DNA from: Roseitranquillus sediminis
GTDB lineage: Bacteria; Pseudomonadota; Alphaproteobacteria; Rhodobacterales; Rhodobacteraceae
Reading direction: 5' to 3'
Assembly (NCBI RefSeq): GCF_016918935.1
Contig: NZ_JAFFOB010000018.1
Span: forward strand, 259,915 to 323,914
DNA: 64,000 nt
Below the pieces are notes generated by a model. That model saw nothing but the letters and a program-made list of their open reading frames with translations, was not told the DNA's origin and ran no database searches. Made by a program: the position numbers and the translations under genes. How positions within the stretch are numbered: the first letter of the stretch is position 1; each line of letters opens with the position of its first letter. Of the stretch, positions 43,721 to 53,651 are shown in pieces.

Positions 43721-45700
43721 ATGACAAAGAGAAGAAATCGTTGGTGCGCATCGGCATCGGCGCTGGCCATGTGCGTCGTCGCGGGCTCTGCCCTCGCGAA
43801 CGAAGACGTATTGCGCCTTCAGGAGGAAGAGGGCGTCGTCGTGATGCCCAGCATCACCTATAACGGCTGGAACTACAGCCCGCTGGACCAGATCAACACC
43901 GACAACGTCGACGACCTGGTCATGAAGTGGACGGTCCAGCTCGGCATTACCGACGAATTCGAGGCGCCGCCGCTCATCGTGAACGACACGATGTACATCA
44001 TCACGCCCGAGCCGAACCACGTCTATGCCCTCGACCTGACGGATAACGGGAAGATCCTCTGGGAGTATCGCCCGCCGTTCTCGGACGAGGAGCTGAGCGC
44101 TGCGCTGGAAGTGGCCTGCTGTGGCTCGCAGACCCGGGGCCTCAACTACGCCGAGGGCAAGCTCTTCATGCAGACGCTCGGCGGCAAGGTCATCGCGCTC
44201 GACGCCGAGACCGGCGAGGAGCTCTGGCTGACCGAGGCTGCGGACCAGATCTACGGCGAGACGATGGTCGGCAACGGGATCGTCATTGGTGATCTTTACA
44301 TCGCCGGTAACGCCGGAGGTGAGTACGGCGCGCGCGGTGCGGTCACGGCGTTCGACATCAACACCGGCGACATCCAGTGGAAGTACTACAACATGGGGCC
44401 GAACAACGAGGTCGGCATCACGGACCGCTTCCAGCCGTTCTACGCGGATGACCAGATCGAGAACCCGGCCCTGGCCTCGTGGAAAGGTGACTCGTGGAAG
44501 CGCGGCGGCGGCACATCGTGGGGATACTTCACCTACGACCCCGACCTGAACATGTTCTACTACTCGACCGGGAACTGCGGCCCCTGGAACCCCGACTATC
44601 GTCGGGAGTGGGGTCAGGTTGACCTGGACGACGCCGGCGGACTCGAGACCTACCGGAACAACTACTGCGCATCGCAGCTGGCGCGGGACGCAACCACCGG
44701 CGAGCTGATCTGGGCGTACAACATCACGCCGCAGGACCAGTGGGACCTCGACGAGCCCCTGATCACGCCGCTCGTGGATCTCGAAATGAACGGCGAGACC
44801 CGGAAGGTTGCGCTGAAAGCCGCACGCAACGGCTACTTCTACGTCTGGGATCGCGAGACGGGCGAGATTGTCAACGACCCCTGGCCGTTCCAGTACGTCG
44901 ACTTCATGACGGGCGTAGACAAGGAGACGGGCCGCGCCCTCTACGACATCGGCAAGATGATGTTCACCAACGAGGAGGATCGTCGCCAGTACACTCAGGC
45001 CGGCGTTCTCAGCGAGGAGGAGATCGCACTGCAGGAGGAAGAGGCGGCGCTCTACGGCACCGAGGAGGAGGCCGAGCAGGTCGCCCGCGGGGGCACGGAC
45101 GTGTCCTGGTGCCCCGGCATCGCAGCCAGGAACTGGGAGAACGACGCGTATTCGCCGCAAACCGGCCTGCTCTACACTGCGACGCAGACCGAGTGCCGCA
45201 CGATGCGCGTGACGGAAGGCGAGTTCACCGTGCCTCAGACCGCAGAGGGCTACCGTCTGCGGGAGTACGTCGGCGAACCCTACAACGTCGACGTCAACGG
45301 GAATCCGACGGAGCACAAGTCGGAGCTCCAGGCCAATGATCCCGTCAGCGGCGAGACCGTGTGGCGCATCGAGTGGATGGAGAGCAACCGTACGCCGATC
45401 CTTGCGACGGCGGGTAACCTGGTGTTCCAGGGAGGCGAGGACGCGGGCACCTTCCGCGCGATCGACGCCACGAACGGCGACATCCTGTGGGAGTTCCGCA
45501 CAGGCACCGGATTCGGAGTGACGCCCGTCACCTACATCTCTCCAGAGGGTGAGCAGCACGTCGCCATCATCGGCAGCAACCGTGGCGCTGACGAGAAGGT
45601 CGAGGCGAACGCCGAGCCGGACGCCGCCAACCGCTACAAGCGGCAAGGCAGCACGCTCTACGTCTTCGGACTGCAGCGCGACATGGCATCCGCGAACTGA
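43721..45700 (+). CDS. PQQ-dependent alcohol dehydrogenase with lanthanide-type Asp pair
   Basis: A 659-residue soluble periplasmic quinoprotein with a GGAGGAGAAG site, signal peptide (cleavage near ALA, residue 26) and eight-bladed propeller. The adjacent cysteines C133-C134 (ACCGSQTRG) form the ring disulfide of methanol/ethanol dehydrogenases. The catalytic Asp is D342 in QWDLDEP; a second Asp two residues on (D344) is the position that coordinates a lanthanide in XoxF/PedH-type enzymes and is Ala, Ser or Thr in calcium types. Residues 417-458 form an unusual Glu-rich insertion. There is no C-terminal cytochrome domain, so the adjacent cytochrome is the likely acceptor. The alcohol is unknown. 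Confidence 0.92.
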   Translation: MTKRRNRWCASASALAMCVVAGSALANEDVLRLQEEEGVVVMPSITYNGWNYSPLDQINTDNVDDLVMKWTVQLGITDEFEAPPLIVNDTMYIITPEPNHVYALDLTDNGKILWEYRPPFSDEELSAALEVACCGSQTRGLNYAEGKLFMQTLGGKVIALDAETGEELWLTEAADQIYGETMVGNGIVIGDLYIAGNAGGEYGARGAVTAFDINTGDIQWKYYNMGPNNEVGITDRFQPFYADDQIENPALASWKGDSWKRGGGTSWGYFTYDPDLNMFYYSTGNCGPWNPDYRREWGQVDLDDAGGLETYRNNYCASQLARDATTGELIWAYNITPQDQWDLDEPLITPLVDLEMNGETRKVALKAARNGYFYVWDRETGEIVNDPWPFQYVDFMTGVDKETGRALYDIGKMMFTNEEDRRQYTQAGVLSEEEIALQEEEAALYGTEEEAEQVARGGTDVSWCPGIAARNWENDAYSPQTGLLYTATQTECRTMRVTEGEFTVPQTAEGYRLREYVGEPYNVDVNGNPTEHKSELQANDPVSGETVWRIEWMESNRTPILATAGNLVFQGGEDAGTFRAIDATNGDILWEFRTGTGFGVTPVTYISPEGEQHVAIIGSNRGADEKVEANAEPDAANRYKRQGSTLYVFGLQRDMASAN

Positions 45701-45786: not shown

Positions 45787-45857
45787 GAGAAGAGCCCTGC
45801 ATGGCGGTTCCATCGAGGGCCGTCGTCTCGAACGGGCGTCAGAAGCGAGGCGCGACG

Positions 45858-46706
45858 ATGACAGTCCTGAAGTCGAGGCGGCAGGTTTCCGCACTCAAGC
45901 TGGTCCTGCTGGCATTGGCCAACATCGCCTTCGGAGCGGCGGGCGCAGCGAGCGCCTGGGAGATGCGGGTCTGCTCCGACCCGGACTACATGCCCTTCTC
46001 GAACCGCGACCTGGAGGGCCTGGAGAATCGGATCGCGACCATTCTCGCCGACGAGATGGGCGCCGAACTTGCTTACAAGTGGTGGCCGCAGGTGCCTTCG
46101 ATGGTCACCGACATGCTGCGCGAGGGCGAGTGCGACATGATCATGGGCGTCCCTGACAGCCAGAAGGGGTTGCTGCCGTCCCTCGCCTATTACCAGAGCC
46201 CTTACGTTTTCGTCTATCGCGCAGACGCCGACTACGAGATCTCGAGCTTCGACGACCCGGATCTGGAGCACCTGAAACTGGGCGTTCAGTCCACGAACGA
46301 TCGCGCCCACACCGCGCTCGGCAAACGCGGGCTCAACGACAACGTCGCGCTCCAGTTCATCGCCCGTCCCGAGGATGAGGACGGACCCTTCGCTCCACTC
46401 GTCGAGGCCGTGGCCAGCGGCGAGATCGACGTCGCGGTGCCCTGGGGGCCGGTGGGCGGCTACTATGCGGCACGCCAGCCGGTCGAGCTGACGGTGACAC
46501 AAGCGCCTCACTTCGACCTGCCGTTCACGCCCATGTTCATCAGCGTCGTGATCGGCGTCCGCCGCGGGGACGAGGCGCTGCGCGATCGCCTGGACATCGC
46601 CCTCGCCAGCAGGTGGGACGACGTGCTTTCCGTGCTCGAAGAGTACGACGTGCCGACCATACCGCTTGCCCGACCGATCGAGAGCCTGGAGAGCGCCGCC
46701 CCATGA
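45858..46706 (+). CDS. XoxJ/MxaJ-like quinoprotein-associated binding protein
   Basis: A 282-residue family-3-type periplasmic binding protein of the quinoprotein-dehydrogenase-associated (MoxJ/XoxJ) group. ATG 45858 gives a signal peptide cleaved near AASA-WEMRV. Family segments are RVCSDPDYMPFSNRDLEGLENRIA, ECDMIMGVPDSQKG, YYQSPYVFVYR and AVPWGPVGGYYA. XoxJ-type proteins are thought to help activate the apo-dehydrogenase rather than feed a transporter. It follows the terminator, so it may start its own transcript, and overlaps the next gene by 4 bp. Confidence 0.87.
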   Translation: MTVLKSRRQVSALKLVLLALANIAFGAAGAASAWEMRVCSDPDYMPFSNRDLEGLENRIATILADEMGAELAYKWWPQVPSMVTDMLREGECDMIMGVPDSQKGLLPSLAYYQSPYVFVYRADADYEISSFDDPDLEHLKLGVQSTNDRAHTALGKRGLNDNVALQFIARPEDEDGPFAPLVEAVASGEIDVAVPWGPVGGYYAARQPVELTVTQAPHFDLPFTPMFISVVIGVRRGDEALRDRLDIALASRWDDVLSVLEEYDVPTIPLARPIESLESAAP

Positions 46707-47989
46707 ACAAGTTCGGATCCGCTATCGGTGCCCTCGCGCTCCTCGCCGTTACGACTCCTGCGCTCGCGCAGGATGCGGGCCTTCGCCCTCTGCGCATCGG
46801 AGTCGTCATCCCGTCCCGGACCGGCGAGATTCCCATCGTCTCGTCCGTCAACGATTACGTCGGCGAAGGCGCGCTGATGGGCGCGCGGCTGGCGGAAGCG
46901 CGGCTTGCAAGCGAGGCGGAGGAGAGCGGCATACATCTCGACCCGCTGCTCGCCAATTCTCCCACGGCAGCCGCCGCGGAGCGCGCCGCGCGCCGGCTTG
47001 TCGAGATCGAGGACGTCGACGCGCTCGTCGGCGGGATCGGCGAAGGTCAGGCCGAGGTGCTGATGCAGGTGGCCGAGGATGCGCGCATCCCCTTCCTCAA
47101 CATCGGATCCACAGATGACCTCCTGCGGGGTCGCGACTGCAGCCGCTATACCTTCCATGTGGAGGCGAGCGACGCGATGTATCTCGATGCCATGGCGGCG
47201 CTCTCGGTTGTCGAGGGCAACACGCGCTGGTTCGTCGTACACCCCAACGACGCACGCGGAACGGCACTGATGCGACGGGCGGAGCAGTCGCTGGCGAAGA
47301 TCGCCGCGAATGGTGAGATCGTCGGAAGCGCGGCAGTGCCCGCGGGGCTTCCGTCCTACCACGCCGAGATCGCCGCTGCCGGAAACCTGGGGGCCGATGC
47401 CATCGTGCTTCTGCTCGACCCGATGGACCAGATGGTATTCCTGACGCAGAAGGAAGAAGAGAACTCGGATCTGCCGACGCTCAGCTTCCCGCACACCTTG
47501 ACCCAGACACGCGACTACATCGCCGCCGCACGACACGTCGCGCCGAAAGCAAACCCGCGCCAGCGCCTGGCGCTCTGGGAGACGACGCTGGACGAGCCTT
47601 ACAACGACATCTTCCGTTCTCGGTGGGGTGAGCCTACGGACCCCACCGCATGGAGCGCCTACCACGCGATCAAGATCATCCTCGACGCGGCCAAGTCGTC
47701 CGGAGACTTTGAAGGCGAAGAACTCGTAGCCGCGCTCGAAGGCGAGGTCGGGTTCGAAGTGCTGAAGGGTCCGGGAACGTCCTTCCGCAAGTGGGACCAC
47801 CAACTGCGGCAGCCGCTCTATGCGGTTACCGTGGACAGGGAGGTGGTGTGGGAGCGGATGTCGCTGCCAACGCGCATCGCGATCGCCGGCAATCCGGCTG
47901 TCCTGCCCCCGGCTGTTCCTGGCGTCGATCCCGTCGCGCGACTCGATCTGTTGGGCGACACGGCCGAGACCTCCGCCTGCACGTTCTGA
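46703..47989 (+). CDS. PQQ-associated ABC transporter substrate-binding protein, copy 1
   Basis: A 428-residue branched-chain-amino-acid-type binding protein resembling the family found with PQQ alcohol dehydrogenase systems. It has a signal peptide (MNKFGSAIGALALLAVTTPA, cleavage at LAQ). Segments are RIGVVIPSRTGE, VGGIGEGQAEVLMQVAED, IPFLNIGSTDDLLRG and FRKWDHQLRQPLYAVTVDRE. It overlaps the XoxJ-like gene and is convergent with the ABC permease gene 13 bp away. A homologue lies at 51917-53182. The ligand is unknown; a role in alcohol, cofactor or metal handling is inferred from context. Confidence 0.86.
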   Translation: MNKFGSAIGALALLAVTTPALAQDAGLRPLRIGVVIPSRTGEIPIVSSVNDYVGEGALMGARLAEARLASEAEESGIHLDPLLANSPTAAAAERAARRLVEIEDVDALVGGIGEGQAEVLMQVAEDARIPFLNIGSTDDLLRGRDCSRYTFHVEASDAMYLDAMAALSVVEGNTRWFVVHPNDARGTALMRRAEQSLAKIAANGEIVGSAAVPAGLPSYHAEIAAAGNLGADAIVLLLDPMDQMVFLTQKEEENSDLPTLSFPHTLTQTRDYIAAARHVAPKANPRQRLALWETTLDEPYNDIFRSRWGEPTDPTAWSAYHAIKIILDAAKSSGDFEGEELVAALEGEVGFEVLKGPGTSFRKWDHQLRQPLYAVTVDREVVWERMSLPTRIAIAGNPAVLPPAVPGVDPVARLDLLGDTAETSACTF

Positions 47990-48002: not shown

Positions 48003-48875
48003 TCACCTGCTGGTGGTCATCCGTTTCATGGCGTGGGCGGACGCAATTACCGCGAGGGGCGGCGACAGCAGAATTACGCCGAGATCCAGGGCCAGGGGCA
48101 GTTGCCGAAAATCCAGCAGGACGAACCGCAATGTGTCGAGCATGTAGCTGACCGGATTCGCATAGACGAGAACCTGCAGCCAAACTGGCAGCTGCACCAC
48201 CCAGCCGCCGCCAATCGCGTAGATCCCGAGTTGACGTAGCTCGACCCGCAGATGCTCGGGGATATCGAGGAAACCGACGCCACCGACCACGCCGCGGAGC
48301 GGAAAGATCGAGCCCGACAAGAAGTAGAGCGGCTGAATCACGCCGTTCGAGATGGCGCCGAAACCCTCGAACGTCCTGAGTCGCGAAGCGAGGACGATGC
48401 CCGCTCCGGTCAACGTGATCCCCATCGAGAAGATCACGACCAGTGCCAGGAGGAAGGCCGCCAGCGTCACCTCAACGCCGATCAGCGGCGTGAACAGGAA
48501 TGGGATGATCCCCTGCACCAGCGCGATGGTCGCACCGCCGAGGAGCTTGCCCAGCGCCACGGAAAGCATCGGCGCCGGAGAGATCACCACTTCGCGCAGC
48601 AAGCCCACCTGCCGGTCCCAGATCAGGGCGATCGCGCATTGCATCGATGCGAAGAGCACGTTCAGCGTAATCACGCCCGGCAGAATGAACTGCGCGTATG
48701 TGTAACCCTCGATTTCCCGCAGCGCGGCGCCGAGGCCAAGTCCCAGGATCACCAGCCAAAGGATGGTGCGGGAGATGCCGCCGAACAGTTGCGACGTGTC
48801 GCGTACGTAGCGCAGCACCTCGCGCCGCCACATCACGAGGATGACCGCAGGTGCAATTCCGGGCAGTAGATTCAT
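48003..48875 (-). CDS. PQQ-associated ABC-2 type permease
   Basis: A 290-residue ABC-2 membrane protein with six predicted membrane segments. It starts MNLLPGIAPAVILVMWRREVLRYVRDTSQLFGG and carries the exporter-type FILPGVITLNVLFASM and PLYFLSGSIFPL segments. ATG 48875 overlaps the ATPase stop as ATGA. ABC-2 permeases are usually exporters, so pairing with binding-protein genes is atypical. Related ATPase/permease pairs recur beside PQQ alcohol dehydrogenases, and a comparable cassette next to the ped genes of Pseudomonas putida has been linked to lanthanide-dependent growth. Confidence 0.87.
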   Translation of the reverse strand: MNLLPGIAPAVILVMWRREVLRYVRDTSQLFGGISRTILWLVILGLGLGAALREIEGYTYAQFILPGVITLNVLFASMQCAIALIWDRQVGLLREVVISPAPMLSVALGKLLGGATIALVQGIIPFLFTPLIGVEVTLAAFLLALVVIFSMGITLTGAGIVLASRLRTFEGFGAISNGVIQPLYFLSGSIFPLRGVVGGVGFLDIPEHLRVELRQLGIYAIGGGWVVQLPVWLQVLVYANPVSYMLDTLRFVLLDFRQLPLALDLGVILLSPPLAVIASAHAMKRMTTSR

Positions 48876-49681
48876 CGCGTGTGCTCTCCGCCTCGACGAG
48901 CGAAACTCACCATGAGGTCGCGCGCAGTCGCATTCTCGTCGCGCAGCTGCCGACCCGTCAGGGCGATGAACACATCCTCCAGCGTCGCCCCTTCGCCGCC
49001 GTTCGCGGCGATAAGCTCTCCGGGGCTGCCCACGGCGATCAGCTTTCCCCTGTCGAGGATACCGACACGGTCGCAAGTTTCAGCTTCGGGCAGGTTGTGC
49101 GTGGTCATCAGGACCGTCATCCCATTGGCTCGCAGGCTCGAGATGCGTTCCCAGAGGTTCAGCCGGCCCTGTGGGTCGAGCCCGATCGTTGGCTCGTCCA
49201 GGATCAACAGCCTCGGATCGTGGAGGAGCGCGCGCGCGAGTTCGAGCCGCCGCTTCATGCCGCCGGAGTATGTCCTCACGAGCCGCTTTGCCGCCTCTTC
49301 GAGCGCGGCCCAGGCAACTGCCCTCTGCACCGCTTCGGCTCTGCGACGGCGCGGCAGCCCATAGAGCACGGCATGGATCTCGAGGTTTTCGACCGCCGTG
49401 AGGCGATCGTCGAGCGCGGGGTCCTGGAACACGACCCCCAGAAGGCGGCGAACGGCCTCGGGCTGCTTGGCCACGTCGTGCCCAAGCACCCACGCTTGGC
49501 CGCCGTCGGGTGGCAGCAGCGTCATCAGCAGGTTGACCAAGGTGGTCTTGCCCGCACCGTTCGGGCCAAGGAGGGCGAAGAACTCTCCTTCGTAGATCTC
49601 GAGTGAGACCTCACTGAGGGCCTGAACGTCCCCGTAGCGGTGAGACAGACCTGCTGTCTCGACCGCGTTCTTTCGTGTCAT
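48872..49681 (-). CDS. PQQ-associated ABC transporter ATPase
   Basis: A 269-residue exporter-type ATPase. Walker A is GPNGAGKTT, the Q-loop is in VVFQDPALDDRLT, the signature is YSGGMKRRL, Walker B is LLILDEPTIGLDPQ and the switch His is in MTTHNLPEAE. It is the partner of the ABC-2 permease, with a 4-bp overlap. The orphan acidic protein gene ends 8 bp upstream, so ATPase and permease are expressed with that protein and the propeller. Confidence 0.92.
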   Translation of the reverse strand: MTRKNAVETAGLSHRYGDVQALSEVSLEIYEGEFFALLGPNGAGKTTLVNLLMTLLPPDGGQAWVLGHDVAKQPEAVRRLLGVVFQDPALDDRLTAVENLEIHAVLYGLPRRRRAEAVQRAVAWAALEEAAKRLVRTYSGGMKRRLELARALLHDPRLLILDEPTIGLDPQGRLNLWERISSLRANGMTVLMTTHNLPEAETCDRVGILDRGKLIAVGSPGELIAANGGEGATLEDVFIALTGRQLRDENATARDLMVSFARRGGEHTR

Positions 49682-49689
49682 ATCGACAA

Positions 49690-50817
49690 TCAGCCCCCCA
49701 AGGCGCTCCCGATGTCGGAAAGCGTTTCCGAGAGGGCTGCGCAGGCGGCGGCGTGCGCGCTCGGGTCCGCCGGGGCCGTGTCCGACTCCTCTGTCTGTTC
49801 TCCGTCCTCGGCCTCGTCGTCCTCGCCTTCCTCTTCCCCCTCGTCGTCGTCGTCTTCGCCGAGTTCAGCGAGGGTTGGGAAAAGCTCCTGCGCCTCCGCG
49901 TGCGCCTCTGGCGCAAACAGACCAGCGGTCGCCGCGAGCTCGCCCTCGTAGAGATCGTGGACGGCAATTATGGCCTCCACGCCGATAGCGTCGTCTCCGA
50001 CCTCGTATGCCGCGCAAGATGCGCCGGTGGTCTCGGCAAGGTGCGCGGCCAGTCGCGCGAAATCTCGGCCAGGAAAGAGGTCGGCACCGACGACGCTCTC
50101 GACTATGCCGGCCAGACGCTGAGCCGGCGCCTCCGCCTCCTCTGGGTTCCACCCCACCACGGAGCCCGGAGGCCCGGCATCGGGATAGAGTGCGTGAAGA
50201 GCTGCCAGCATCTCCTCGGCGTCGCCGCGATGCTCCTCCGTCGCCAGCGACTGGATCTCCGCCCAGAGCAGGTCGACCCGCTGCAAGGTCGTCCAGCCGG
50301 ATGGATACTCCCAGACCTCTTCGACGGCTTCCTCGTAGCCTTCCGCTACGCCACCTTCGGCCAACAGCAGATCCACCAGAACCGCGGCCTTGAACGCCGG
50401 CGCCTCGCGGACCTCCTGGTCGAGGACCACCTCGCGCGCGCGCGCTAGCAAGGAGGCAGCCTCGGCCGCCGCGGCGCTTGGATCCTCCCCCTCCTCTGCC
50501 GCCTCTGCCATCTCCGCGAGCGCTGCGGCCAGCTCTTCTGCCAGCTGCGCGTCCCGCTCCGCAAGCGTTCCGCCGAACCGCGCGAGGAGCGGCCCCGCCG
50601 CCGCCTCCAGCTGCTCCACGAGTTCCTCGTCGAAGGGCGGCGCGAAATGGTCGGCCAAGGTGAGTCGCGAAGCGATCATCTCGAGCCCGAAGGCGCGGCT
50701 TTCCTCGACGGTCCAGTCGAGGAAAGGAGCGGAGCCGTCCTGTGCCGGAGCCGCCGTCGCGAGGCTCGCCAGAGCCGGCGACAGGAGGGCGAGCCGACTG
50801 ATGCGATCAGCCTTCAT
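49690..50817 (-). CDS. Secreted orphan protein with Asp/Glu-rich C-terminal tail
   Basis: A 375-residue protein I do not recognise. ATG 50817 gives a signal peptide (MKADRISRLALLSPALASLA, cleavage at APAQ), so it is periplasmic. The body is alpha-helical and very acidic (QLAEELAAALAEMAEAAEEGED, EEAVEEVWEYPSGW). A tail from residue about 321 to 346 is almost entirely Asp, Glu and Gly, then the protein ends with a Ser/Ala-rich helix containing one Cys. The gene overlaps the propeller gene by 11 bp and precedes the ATPase by 8 bp, so it is embedded in the PQQ-associated ABC operon. A metal-binding role is plausible from composition but unproven. Confidence 0.78.
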   Translation of the reverse strand: MKADRISRLALLSPALASLATAAPAQDGSAPFLDWTVEESRAFGLEMIASRLTLADHFAPPFDEELVEQLEAAAGPLLARFGGTLAERDAQLAEELAAALAEMAEAAEEGEDPSAAAAEAASLLARAREVVLDQEVREAPAFKAAVLVDLLLAEGGVAEGYEEAVEEVWEYPSGWTTLQRVDLLWAEIQSLATEEHRGDAEEMLAALHALYPDAGPPGSVVGWNPEEAEAPAQRLAGIVESVVGADLFPGRDFARLAAHLAETTGASCAAYEVGDDAIGVEAIIAVHDLYEGELAATAGLFAPEAHAEAQELFPTLAELGEDDDDEGEEEGEDDEAEDGEQTEESDTAPADPSAHAAACAALSETLSDIGSALGG

Positions 50818-51823
50818 TGGGGATCCTCCCGACGATGGCGGAGTGGGCACCGCGGCCGACGGCGATGTTGTCGATGACGCTGAGCGTCTCGGTATCGATG
50901 ACCGAGACGCTGTCCGAGAGACCGTTGGCGGTGTAAACCCTGCTGCCGTCGGGACTGATGGCGATGCCCCAAGGGCGCCGGCCCATCTGCTCGCGGATCG
51001 TCGCGATGACCTCGTTCTCCTCAGTGTCGATGACATAGACGGCACTCGTTCCGCCGCCGGCCACATAGAGGCGGTCGCCCTCCGGGGCGACTGCGATCTC
51101 GACCGGTCGGGAGTCGAGTCCCAGGTTGATGGTGTCGATCACCGTGTGGTCTTGCGTGTCAATCACCGACACCGTTCCGCCGATTTCGGCCGTGACGTAG
51201 GCGCGCGTGCCGTCATTCGAGAACTCCACCACCCGCGGCCTGTTGCCGACGAGGCGGTGGGTGACAACGCTGAGGTTTTCTGCGTCGATGACGGTCACGC
51301 TGTGGGTGGCCTCGGCCGTGACGTATACCCAGCGCCCGTCCGGGCTGACGGCCACGCCCTCGGCCTCCACGCCGACGGGGAACCGGGCGATCTCCGATCC
51401 GTCCTCGACCTTGTAGCCGGCGCCCTGCGCCAGCGCTTCGAGCGAGGCCCAGACTTCCTCCCCGTCCGGGCTCACCGCCAGGCGCTCCGGGTTTCCACCC
51501 GCGCGGAACTCGCTGAGGATCTCGTTCGTCTCGACGTCGATCGCGACGATCTTGTCCTCCGGCGTCTCCACCTGCGGGTTGAAGTCGCTGACCGAGATGT
51601 AGACGGTTCGCCCGTCCGGGCTGACAGCGACGCCGCGCGGGCGCACCTCGCCAGGCCGGCCCGAAATCGGCAGCGTTGCCATGACGGTGTTCGTGGCCGG
51701 ATCGATGACCGAGACATCAGCGTTGTACTCGTTCGATACGTAGACGCGGTAGTCTTCATTCTGCGCCTGCGCCGGGATCCCAAGCAGGGCCGCTACGGCG
51801 ACTCCTGCAAGCGCGGTTTTCAT
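50807..51823 (-). CDS. PQQ-associated YVTN beta-propeller protein
   Basis: A 338-residue periplasmic propeller with an AGGAGG site, ATG 51823 and signal peptide (MKTALAGVAVAALLGIPAQA). It has about seven repeats of the type VYVSNEYNADVSVID, VYISVSDFNPQ, VYVTAEATHSVTVID, LYVAGGGTSAVYVID, each followed by a TxxVxATI-like strand. It resembles the beta-propeller protein that recurs with PQQ alcohol dehydrogenase ABC systems. It probably binds a small ligand or partner protein; an enzymatic role is not indicated. It leads the minus-strand operon with the acidic protein, ATPase and permease. Confidence 0.88.
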   Translation of the reverse strand: MKTALAGVAVAALLGIPAQAQNEDYRVYVSNEYNADVSVIDPATNTVMATLPISGRPGEVRPRGVAVSPDGRTVYISVSDFNPQVETPEDKIVAIDVETNEILSEFRAGGNPERLAVSPDGEEVWASLEALAQGAGYKVEDGSEIARFPVGVEAEGVAVSPDGRWVYVTAEATHSVTVIDAENLSVVTHRLVGNRPRVVEFSNDGTRAYVTAEIGGTVSVIDTQDHTVIDTINLGLDSRPVEIAVAPEGDRLYVAGGGTSAVYVIDTEENEVIATIREQMGRRPWGIAISPDGSRVYTANGLSDSVSVIDTETLSVIDNIAVGRGAHSAIVGRIPNEG

Positions 51824-51916
51824 TCCTCCTGGTGATCTCACCCTTCTCTCCTCCCTGTGGTCAATGTAGGCCGTGGCCGCCGGTTCAAGCCAGTTTGCCC
51901 GCCCTTCGCGCGAATT

Positions 51917-53182
51917 TCATTCTTGAAAGCCTCGGCACCTACTTGCGTGCTCGAGGTCGCCGAGTTGATCGAGCCGTTCGACCGGATCAGTACCGGGCAT
52001 GTAGATGGCGGGCAACTCGCCTACCAGCAAAGCGGCATCGAGCCGGTCGGATGACGTCTCGTTGATCTTCACCAGGTAGAGCGACTGCCGCATCTGGTGA
52101 TCCCACGGCCTGAACGACGCCCCGATCCCCTTCCAGAGATCGAAGATTGTGTTCTCGGCACCCAGATACGCCGCGACATCCTCGGGCTCGGCCGAGCCGC
52201 CCATGACGATTGCCTCGTAGAGGATCTTGACCGCCTGAAATCCGGCCCAGGCGCCCGCCTCCATCGGTTCGCCCCAACGCTGAAGATACCGGGCGTTCAG
52301 CTCCCGCGCGCCGTAGGCATCGAGCGTCGGCTCCCAGGAGGTGGCGCGAAAGCCGCTGCCGAGCCCCGGGGCGGCATTGCGCGAGGCATCGAAGAAGGCC
52401 CTCGTCTGTGCCGCAGGATACGGGAAGCCGGTGGTCATCACCTCGACGCCCGCGGCATCGAGACTCGACAGAGCTTCCAGCTGATCCGGGGCCGGGAGCA
52501 GCAGCATGATGAGGTCCGCTCCCGATGCTGCGATCTCTCCCGCCAGCGCGCCGTAGTCGGTCGCGCTCTCCCACACGGAGCTGCCAACTTCCCGCGCCGC
52601 GAAGTGTCTCTCCTCGAGGGCGCTGACGAGCCGCTCGTGCTGATCCTGCGCTTCGCTCGAGTCATTGCGGACGATGAACCACCGCCGAAAGCCGGATCGC
52701 ACGAACCAGCCAGCGAGGGCATCGATGTACATCGCCGCGCTCGGGGCGAGGTGGAACGTCATCGCACCGCACTCGTCGGCCCTGAGGAGATCGCTCGTCG
52801 CGGCGACGTTGACGAATGGCACTCCGCTCTCCTCGGCCCAAGCGCTCAGTTCGCCAGCATCTCCGCGACCGATCCCGCCAACCACCGCGGCAACGCCATG
52901 TTCCTGCCGAAGCCGTGCGGCGGTCTCCCGCGCAGCAGGCGAATGTTCGACCACGACCTGGAAGTCGATTCCGAACAGGGAGGCGTTCATCGAGAACTCT
53001 TCGGCCGCCATTACCGCACCCTGTTCAACGTCTTCGACGAGAGCCGCACGCAGACTCTCGTCTTGGCCGACTTCGGGCAGGATCACGCCGACAACGCCGC
53101 GCACCGCAACATCTTCCTGCGCCTGAACGGCTGGTACCAGCATGCAGAGGATCAGAAGAGCACGGCCGAGGCCGTTGGTCAT
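51917..53182 (-). CDS. PQQ-associated ABC transporter substrate-binding protein, copy 2
   Basis: A 421-residue protein paralogous to the 46703 product. Shared landmarks are VVGGIGRGDAGELSAWAEE, VPFVNVAATSDLLRADEC, FHLAPSAAMYIDALAG and FRPWDHQMRQSLYLVKINE. ATG 53182 gives a compact signal peptide (TNGLGRALLILCMLVPAVQA); a TTG at 53206 with AGGA eight bases upstream is an in-frame alternative eight codons longer. It is the first gene of the run reading into the propeller, 93 bp away. Two copies of one binding-protein family for a single ATPase/permease pair suggest two ligands or two conditions. Confidence 0.85.
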   Translation of the reverse strand: MTNGLGRALLILCMLVPAVQAQEDVAVRGVVGVILPEVGQDESLRAALVEDVEQGAVMAAEEFSMNASLFGIDFQVVVEHSPAARETAARLRQEHGVAAVVGGIGRGDAGELSAWAEESGVPFVNVAATSDLLRADECGAMTFHLAPSAAMYIDALAGWFVRSGFRRWFIVRNDSSEAQDQHERLVSALEERHFAAREVGSSVWESATDYGALAGEIAASGADLIMLLLPAPDQLEALSSLDAAGVEVMTTGFPYPAAQTRAFFDASRNAAPGLGSGFRATSWEPTLDAYGARELNARYLQRWGEPMEAGAWAGFQAVKILYEAIVMGGSAEPEDVAAYLGAENTIFDLWKGIGASFRPWDHQMRQSLYLVKINETSSDRLDAALLVGELPAIYMPGTDPVERLDQLGDLEHASRCRGFQE

Positions 53183-53339
53183 CCCGGAGAGCAGCCCCGA
53201 GATCAAGGTTTCAGTCCTGTAGAGGAATCCAAAGTTCTTCCCGGCATGGTCGTTAGAAGTACCGAAGGAGGATCACCTTCGGCACTTCACTACGTCAAGA
53301 GCCGAGTTGTCGCGCACCTCCGTGCGCTGCGGCAGATGA

Positions 53340-53651
53340 TTAGCCCGGATTGTCCATGGCGTTCTGGAACGCCTCCATCGCGGTCATCTCGGGGGCGACC
53401 TCGCAATCGGTCGTCATTGTTGCCAGGTGCATCGCCTGGGTCTGATCATCGGCTTCCTGCTCGCTCATGCCGATCTCGGTCGCCAGCGCCTCCATCGCCT
53501 GCGTCCGCCCCTCCTCGTCAAGTTCGTTGAATTGCGCGCAGGTCATTTCGAGGTCGAATGCCTCGCCCTCCTGCTGCTCCTGTGCCATCGCAGCTATGGG
53601 AAGCTGCACAGCGATCAGGGCCCCGACGAGCGTTGTGGATATGTAAGACAT
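53340..53651 (-). CDS. Small HdeA-like periplasmic protein
   Basis: A 103-residue protein with a signal peptide (MSYISTTLVGALIAVQLPIA, cleavage near AMAQ). The mature part is short, helical and acidic with two cysteines (EMTCAQFNELDEEGRTQAMEAL and MTTDCEVAP), matching the size and cysteine layout of HdeA/HdeB acid-stress chaperone-like proteins. Such a protein would suit a periplasm acidified by sugar and alcohol oxidation. A GGAGGA site precedes ATG 53651. The assignment is by pattern and is tentative. Confidence 0.65.
   Translation of the reverse strand: MSYISTTLVGALIAVQLPIAAMAQEQQEGEAFDLEMTCAQFNELDEEGRTQAMEALATEIGMSEQEADDQTQAMHLATMTTDCEVAPEMTAMEAFQNAMDNPG

Follow-up and report, generated by a model that had tools for sequence, protein, structure and literature searches.

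In the sections of the literature consulted here, two PQQ-associated ABC transporters are linked to growth with lanthanides. In Pseudomonas putida, PedA1A2BC is needed for normal La-dependent growth (PMC6839425). The same is described for LutAEF of Methylorubrum, where lutE and lutF mutants did not grow with La until suppressors appeared and lutA and lutB mutants grew slowly (PMC7391723). Methylorubrum LutD has been reported to bind lanthanides (PMC7391723, PMC9260416), and the small periplasmic lanthanide-binding proteins named in these sections are lanmodulin, landiscernin/LutD and lanpepsy.

We analysed a 64,000-nucleotide stretch of Roseitranquillus sediminis DNA, here called the window. 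It contains, close to a PQQ dehydrogenase gene, four partner genes that correspond in kind and order to those of PedA1A2BC and LutAEF. Among them lies a gene for an exported helical protein of 375 aa, which we call protein X. In contrast to the described systems, the partners of X all score below curated cut-offs, and no X was found in 20 loci whose YVTN genes are more ordinary.

The operon encoding protein X

The minus strand of the window encodes a PedA1-like substrate-binding protein (SBP; 51917..53206; Peripla_BP_6; TIGR03863, E 1e-36), a PedA2-like YVTN beta-propeller protein (50807..51841; TIGR03866, E 5e-68), protein X (49690..50817), a PedB-like ABC ATPase (48872..49681; TIGR03864) and a PedC-like ABC-2 type permease (48183..49076; ABC2_membrane; TIGR03861), whose true start is probably inside this frame. 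Scores against the PQQ-ABC families were 126.6 bits (cut-off 414) for the SBP, 229.4 (287) for the YVTN protein, 233.2 (302) for the ATPase and 106.6 (241) for the permease. The ATPase and permease scored higher against the drug-export families DrrA (TIGR01188, 284 bits) and DrrB (TIGR01247, 121 bits), also below cut-off. Because the partners fall below the PQQ-ABC cut-offs and DrrA/DrrB score higher, we infer the substrate and the direction of transport. ABC-2 type permeases are commoner among exporters, so that import is here deduced from the mutants published for related systems.

The X frame has no internal stops. It shares 11 bp with the YVTN gene and is separated from the ATPase gene by 8 bp, so that the overlap and the spacing given in the initial annotation were confirmed from the coordinates. 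Facing the operon is a convergent plus-strand cluster consisting of a second PQQ-ABC-type SBP (46613..47989; TIGR03863, E 1e-20, below cut-off), a MoxJ-like quinoprotein-associated periplasmic protein (45801..46706; TIGR03871, 212.8 bits, just above the cut-off of 212.15) and a PQQ alcohol dehydrogenase (43721..45700; TIGR03075, 445.7 bits, cut-off 480). The dehydrogenase carries the motif WDLD, in agreement with the lanthanide-type site previously noted there. We take the second Asp of this motif to mark lanthanide use.

Distribution of X and the transporter branch that it marks

X had been regarded as an orphan. The single window sequence indeed found no relative among 60 other genomes. In one genome (G114), a YVTN gene 63% identical to that of the window was found with a 38%-identical X in the adjoining slot, and a further genome then yielded two more members. 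With the resulting four-row alignment as query, 15 loci were detected in 14 genomes, giving a family of 16 members in 15 genomes with the window included (names that denote the same gene or genome are L040/L048, L041/L051, L042/L049 (= L039), G114/G593 and G560/G585). X is thus no orphan. The genomes are labelled as Alphaproteobacteria or Proteobacteria, Deinococcota (two), Bacillota (one MAG) and, as a named species, Paracoccus tibetensis; the MAG labels are possibly wrong. The X profile matched in only 3/289 genomes of a class sample, one match being a protein of another family (family Y, below), so X is rare. Weak matches were seen in G503 (E 0.0012) and G513 (E 0.0095).

Pfam had no match to X itself, and the 16-member alignment gave one-off weak matches only; NCBIfam contained no model for the family. 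A PDB sequence search with X returned designed helical proteins only, X and its Paracoccus relative were both without a match in a plasmid collection, and no description of X was found among the open-licence PMC papers listed by the searches. Judged by these Pfam, NCBIfam, PDB and literature searches, X is a conserved and apparently undescribed protein family.

Of the 15 homologue loci, 12 have X in an operon of the SBP-YVTN-ATPase-permease type, which bears out the proposal that a PQQ-associated ABC operon has X as a constant member and answers the neighbourhood tabulation suggested with it. The order SBP-YVTN-X-ATPase-permease is found in nine of the 15; in L044 and L054 the order is YVTN-X-ATPase-permease, with no SBP found within the piece, and in L055 all operon genes are present in a changed order. 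At the other three loci (L045, L047 and L049) X is without operon partners: L047 ends at a contig edge just past X, and in L045 and L049 no transporter gene follows X. Counted by genome, an in-operon copy is present in 13/15, the window's included, the exceptions being the genomes of L045 and L047. Extra copies of X were found in L133-L136, with no matching SBP, YVTN or permease gene nearby, and in L133, L135 and L136 no transporter gene adjoins X. The convergent trio of second SBP, MoxJ-like protein and PQQ dehydrogenase is kept in L043, L048, L051, L053 and L056, and in L054 it reaches the edge of the piece. The second SBP itself is kept in six loci (L043, L048, L051, L053, L054 and L056).

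The fixed operon place and the gene overlap would suit a structural adaptor. In that role the helical body would hold the SBP or the YVTN propeller to the ABC-2 permease, or keep the complex stable, and would bind no metal; the acidic linker would serve only solubility or electrostatics. The X copies without transporter neighbours speak against such a role. We regard an adaptor as somewhat unlikely, and as the main rival to the metal hand-over reading set out below.

Every X genome (15/15) has TIGR03075 matches at E<=1e-20, the weakest best match being 1.4e-101, and X homologues in genomes lacking PQQ dehydrogenases, which had been named as evidence that would count against the metal-carrier proposal, were thus not encountered. 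In the class sample, such matches occur in 87/289 genomes (71 at 1e-100, counted from listed rows). Above the curated TIGR03075 cut-off there is no enrichment (3/15 X genomes vs 63/289 in the background); with so few above it, the dehydrogenases of X genomes are mostly divergent. The 15 genomes represent fewer than 15 independent events, and shared ancestry inflates the co-occurrence. Within the X genomes, to which the motif count is confined, Asp occupies the second, lanthanide-type position in all 43 dehydrogenase stretches aligned to WDLD, from 15/15 genomes, with some genes read twice among the 43. The first Asp is altered to Gly in L091 and to Glu in L105/L050.

We compared the X operons with a set of 20 loci from 18 genomes that were found via the YVTN protein and have more ordinary YVTN genes; 13 of them also have ATPase and permease matches. 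Among the 1129 ORFs of these loci, X had no match at E<=0.01. The YVTN proteins of X operons formed one group with support 100/100 (tree of 34 rows), as did the ATPases with 91/99 (tree of 31 rows, two long-branch rows flagged). As both trees give one group and X is absent from the ordinary loci, X marks, by these phylogenies, a separate and divergent branch of the PQQ-associated ABC transporter.

No gene lies between those of the YVTN protein and the ATPase in eight of the 20 ordinary loci. In L062, exported proteins of 174 and 80 aa are encoded between the two, and in L068 a single exported protein of 172 aa. Of the two proteins in L062, the one of 80 aa is a landiscernin homologue (PDB 9c8w, E 5e-19). 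We take landiscernin (LanD) to be LutD, META1p1781, in line with the gene order; if the YVTN protein corresponds to LutB, L062 would have the gene order lutA-B-C-D-E-F known from Methylorubrum. By gene position, X shares an operon slot with landiscernin. Both are exported and contain two Cys, and the gene of each lies after the YVTN gene and before the ATPase gene, whereas they differ in length (80 aa vs 375 aa) and have no sequence match. That X replaces landiscernin in this slot is our conjecture. The landiscernin-like query had no match in the window genome or the 14 other X genomes, its sole positive being its own genome; since it was found in only one of the 20 ordinary loci, its own, this absence from X genomes says little. 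The 174-aa protein of L062 (7819-8340), which has no Pfam match at 1e-5, and the 172-aa protein of L068 (5870-6388) look similar and are candidates for LutC.

The helical body and the acidic linker

The N-terminus of X (residues 1-26; 50740..50817 (-)) resembles a Sec signal peptide in a by-eye reading. It is followed by a conserved helical region (residues 28-245; 50083..50736 (-)), which gave a pLDDT of 94.5 when modelled on its own. An AlphaFold model of the whole protein from 16 sequences had a mean pLDDT of 88.0 and an all-helical body, mostly above 93, with values below 50 in residues 1-26 and 320-347. The body (residues 27-320) contains 60 D/E and 13 K/R. Sequence and model thus agree with the signal peptide and acidic helical body described previously. 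X carries a net charge of -67; per 100 residues this amounts to -17.9, compared with -7.0 for the neighbouring SBP and -7.3 for the YVTN protein. A C-terminal helix region, seen in alignment and model (residues 352-375; 49690..49764 (-)), bears Cys359. This residue and Cys268 are both kept in 15/16 members, L055 being without either, which suggests a possible disulfide. Internal duplication was not detected when the two halves were compared with hhalign (2.2% and 1.6%).

Another window protein is as acidic overall as X. It is an exported protein of 103 aa encoded just upstream of the X operon (53340-53651 (-)), with a net charge of -19 (-18.4 per 100 residues) and an HdeA/HdeB match at the gathering score; the ORFs gathered from other loci contained no match to it at E 1e-3.

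The initial annotation had described a tail of almost only Asp, Glu and Gly at about residues 321-346. This stretch (EDDDDEGEEEGEDDEAEDGEQTEESD; 49780..49857 (-)) holds 19 D/E and 3 G, so that 22/26 residues fit the description; in 12 other examined window proteins, no 26-residue stretch had more than 10 D/E. In members that have it, the tail separates the final helices of the body from the C-terminal helix bearing the second Cys. On this basis it had been proposed that the tail is the working part and buffers Ln3+ or Ca2+ in bulk in the periplasm, and both the composition and the disorder of the stretch in the model would suit this. Against this proposal, the stretch is unconserved. Only 5/16 members have a strong tail (14-20 D/E per 26 at that place); it is short in L045 and L049, the latter having a short acidic stretch near the C-terminus of its X copy; the others show a weak stretch or none at this position. 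Of the 11 members without a strong tail, eight sit in the transporter operon. We consider a tail buffer very improbable. As the tail is strong in few members, it is, from the alignment, an optional linker that is dispensable in evolution and cannot be the function common to the X family; the conserved part is the helical body. The initial annotation saw a real conserved component with good neighbourhood logic, but emphasised the tail where the body would have been the right choice. A variable linker, together with a strongly conserved body that has no recognisable metal motif, would also be compatible with the structural adaptor.

Distant relatives and a possible role in metal hand-over

A weak profile match in G160, at first a candidate X member, turned out to be a protein of another family from a genome outside the 87 with PQQ dehydrogenase matches. 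It led to a Deinococcus plasmid, to Indioceanicola and to five more class genomes. These eight exported proteins, grouped in this analysis and without a Pfam or NCBIfam model, are here called family Y. In hhalign, X and Y matched over 190 columns and X residues 29-238 with a probability of 96.5% (E 9.4e-10, score 77.3), compared with scores of 22.3 for the reversed control and 41.4 for the best of 150 block shuffles. Without L132 the score was 69.4; without L132 and the Deinococcus (Dtae) and Indioceanicola (L164) proteins it was 48.6 (84.5%, E 6.9e-6), which exceeds the best shuffle by little. The Y profile found the window X among the 16 members at E 1.6e-7 and seven of the 16 at E<=0.001, and missed some (L053, E 5.5).

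In Deinococcus taeanensis, the plasmid-borne Y gene (hypothetical protein) lies directly upstream of FTR1, the only seen member that FTR1 adjoins. In G127 the Y gene has a binding-protein-dependent ABC importer nearby, in G050 a TonB receptor and in G069 a CobW GTPase; in Indioceanicola it precedes a di-haem peroxidase/cupredoxin. By eye, no metal gene is beside Y in G173 and G141. The X body thus looks distantly related to exported proteins encoded beside FTR1 or near metal-uptake genes. X and Y are alike in profile and in being exported, Y being near metal-transport genes in several genomes, whereas the conserved HxxHP histidines of Y (7/8 members) are missing from X (0/16). An FTR1 with a fused N-terminal Y-like domain was looked for in the three longest FTR1 frames and not found. 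Searched against all ORFs of 22 FTR1 loci, the X profile gave one weak coil match (E 0.016).

Fold searches with the X model returned no Foldseek match at E <0.001, and the Z scores were inside the noise stated for helical bundles. In Foldseek, EfeM and EfeO ranked 11 and 12 with the whole model; with residues 28-245 their ranks were 2 and 4, and the matches were never significant. EfeM aligned to residues 28-245 over 188 residues (Z 7.5, rmsd 8.1), tied with many unrelated helical chains. Imelysin and EfeO-EfeM (Peptidase_M75) are helical, periplasmic and iron-uptake-linked, and they recur as weak fold matches. X differs from them in having no Pfam match and no GxHxxE (0/16 members), the motif of imelysin/Peptidase_M75 (PMC3143127).

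The place of Y before FTR1 in Deinococcus and near an ABC importer or TonB receptor elsewhere, the weak EfeM/EfeO similarity and the resemblance of the operon ATPase and permease to DrrA/DrrB would all be expected if X were a cousin of FTR1-linked proteins and, with its operon, handled a different cation (Fe2+/3+ or Ca2+) or some other substrate. The missing Y histidines, the lanthanide-type dehydrogenases read in X genomes and the lack of an FTR1 match in the window genome speak against this. In addition, the characterised operon relatives serve La3+ use (PMC6839425, PMC7391723). We hold another substrate to be quite improbable.

Our preferred reading, to which we give a probability of roughly 40%, is that X captures a metal in the periplasm and hands it over, as a subunit of a divergent importer of the lanthanide type. 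X would be an accessory subunit in a branch that diverges from the other Lut/Ped-type (PQQ-associated) ABC transporters, a type serving lanthanide-dependent PQQ alcohol dehydrogenases. The helical body may bind a hard trivalent cation in the periplasm, such as a light lanthanide, perhaps chelated, via conserved carboxylates, of which E159, E162, E226, E229, E240, D252 and E281 are candidate ligands. X would then pass the metal to the SBP and permease, or to the apo-dehydrogenase, and members with a poly-acidic linker would use it for additional, loose electrostatic capture. Metal binding, a lanthanide as the metal and action with the SBP or permease are steps that we infer. The hand-over role fits the apparent relatedness of X to proteins beside metal-uptake genes, which speaks against a metal-free adaptor. 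Lanmodulin, similarly, is a periplasmic protein linked to lanthanides; in contrast to lanmodulin with its EF-hand loops, X has no EF-hand-like loop (D.[DN].[DN]G in 0/16 members). Further points in favour of the hand-over reading are the place of X in the transporter operon at 12/15 loci, the single group formed by these operons and the absence of X from the ordinary loci, the dehydrogenase matches and lanthanide-type Asp in all X genomes, the landiscernin homologue in the corresponding slot of L062 and the published mutants of PedA1A2BC and LutAEF. Counting against it are the lack of a recognisable metal site in X, the partner scores below the PQQ-ABC cut-offs together with the higher DrrA/DrrB scores, the missing enrichment above the TIGR03075 cut-off, the X copies with no adjoining transporter gene and the absence of a confident fold match.

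A bolder version, which we consider unlikely, is that X founded a new class of periplasmic lanthanide carriers, recruited from an iron-import-linked family with histidines lost for carboxylates, and does the work of landiscernin or lanmodulin in a separate, multi-phylum importer branch. X is a concrete candidate for periplasmic lanthanide capture and hand-over, and its apparent relatedness to Y suggests how lanthanide handling might have evolved from the handling of iron. The X operon could also mark probable lanthanide use in uncultured lineages.

Two further features were observed. Four Y proteins (L164, L165, L168 and L169) have a Gly/Glu-rich low-complexity stretch of the GEGGEG type after the signal peptide, so that the superfamily contains a second acidic element of low complexity besides the X linker. 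The window genome (G000) has, at C4, C7 and C16 (L138-L140), more ATPase and permease genes like those of the X transporter, near PQQ dehydrogenases; these stretches had no SBP, YVTN or X match, and their ATPases group together.
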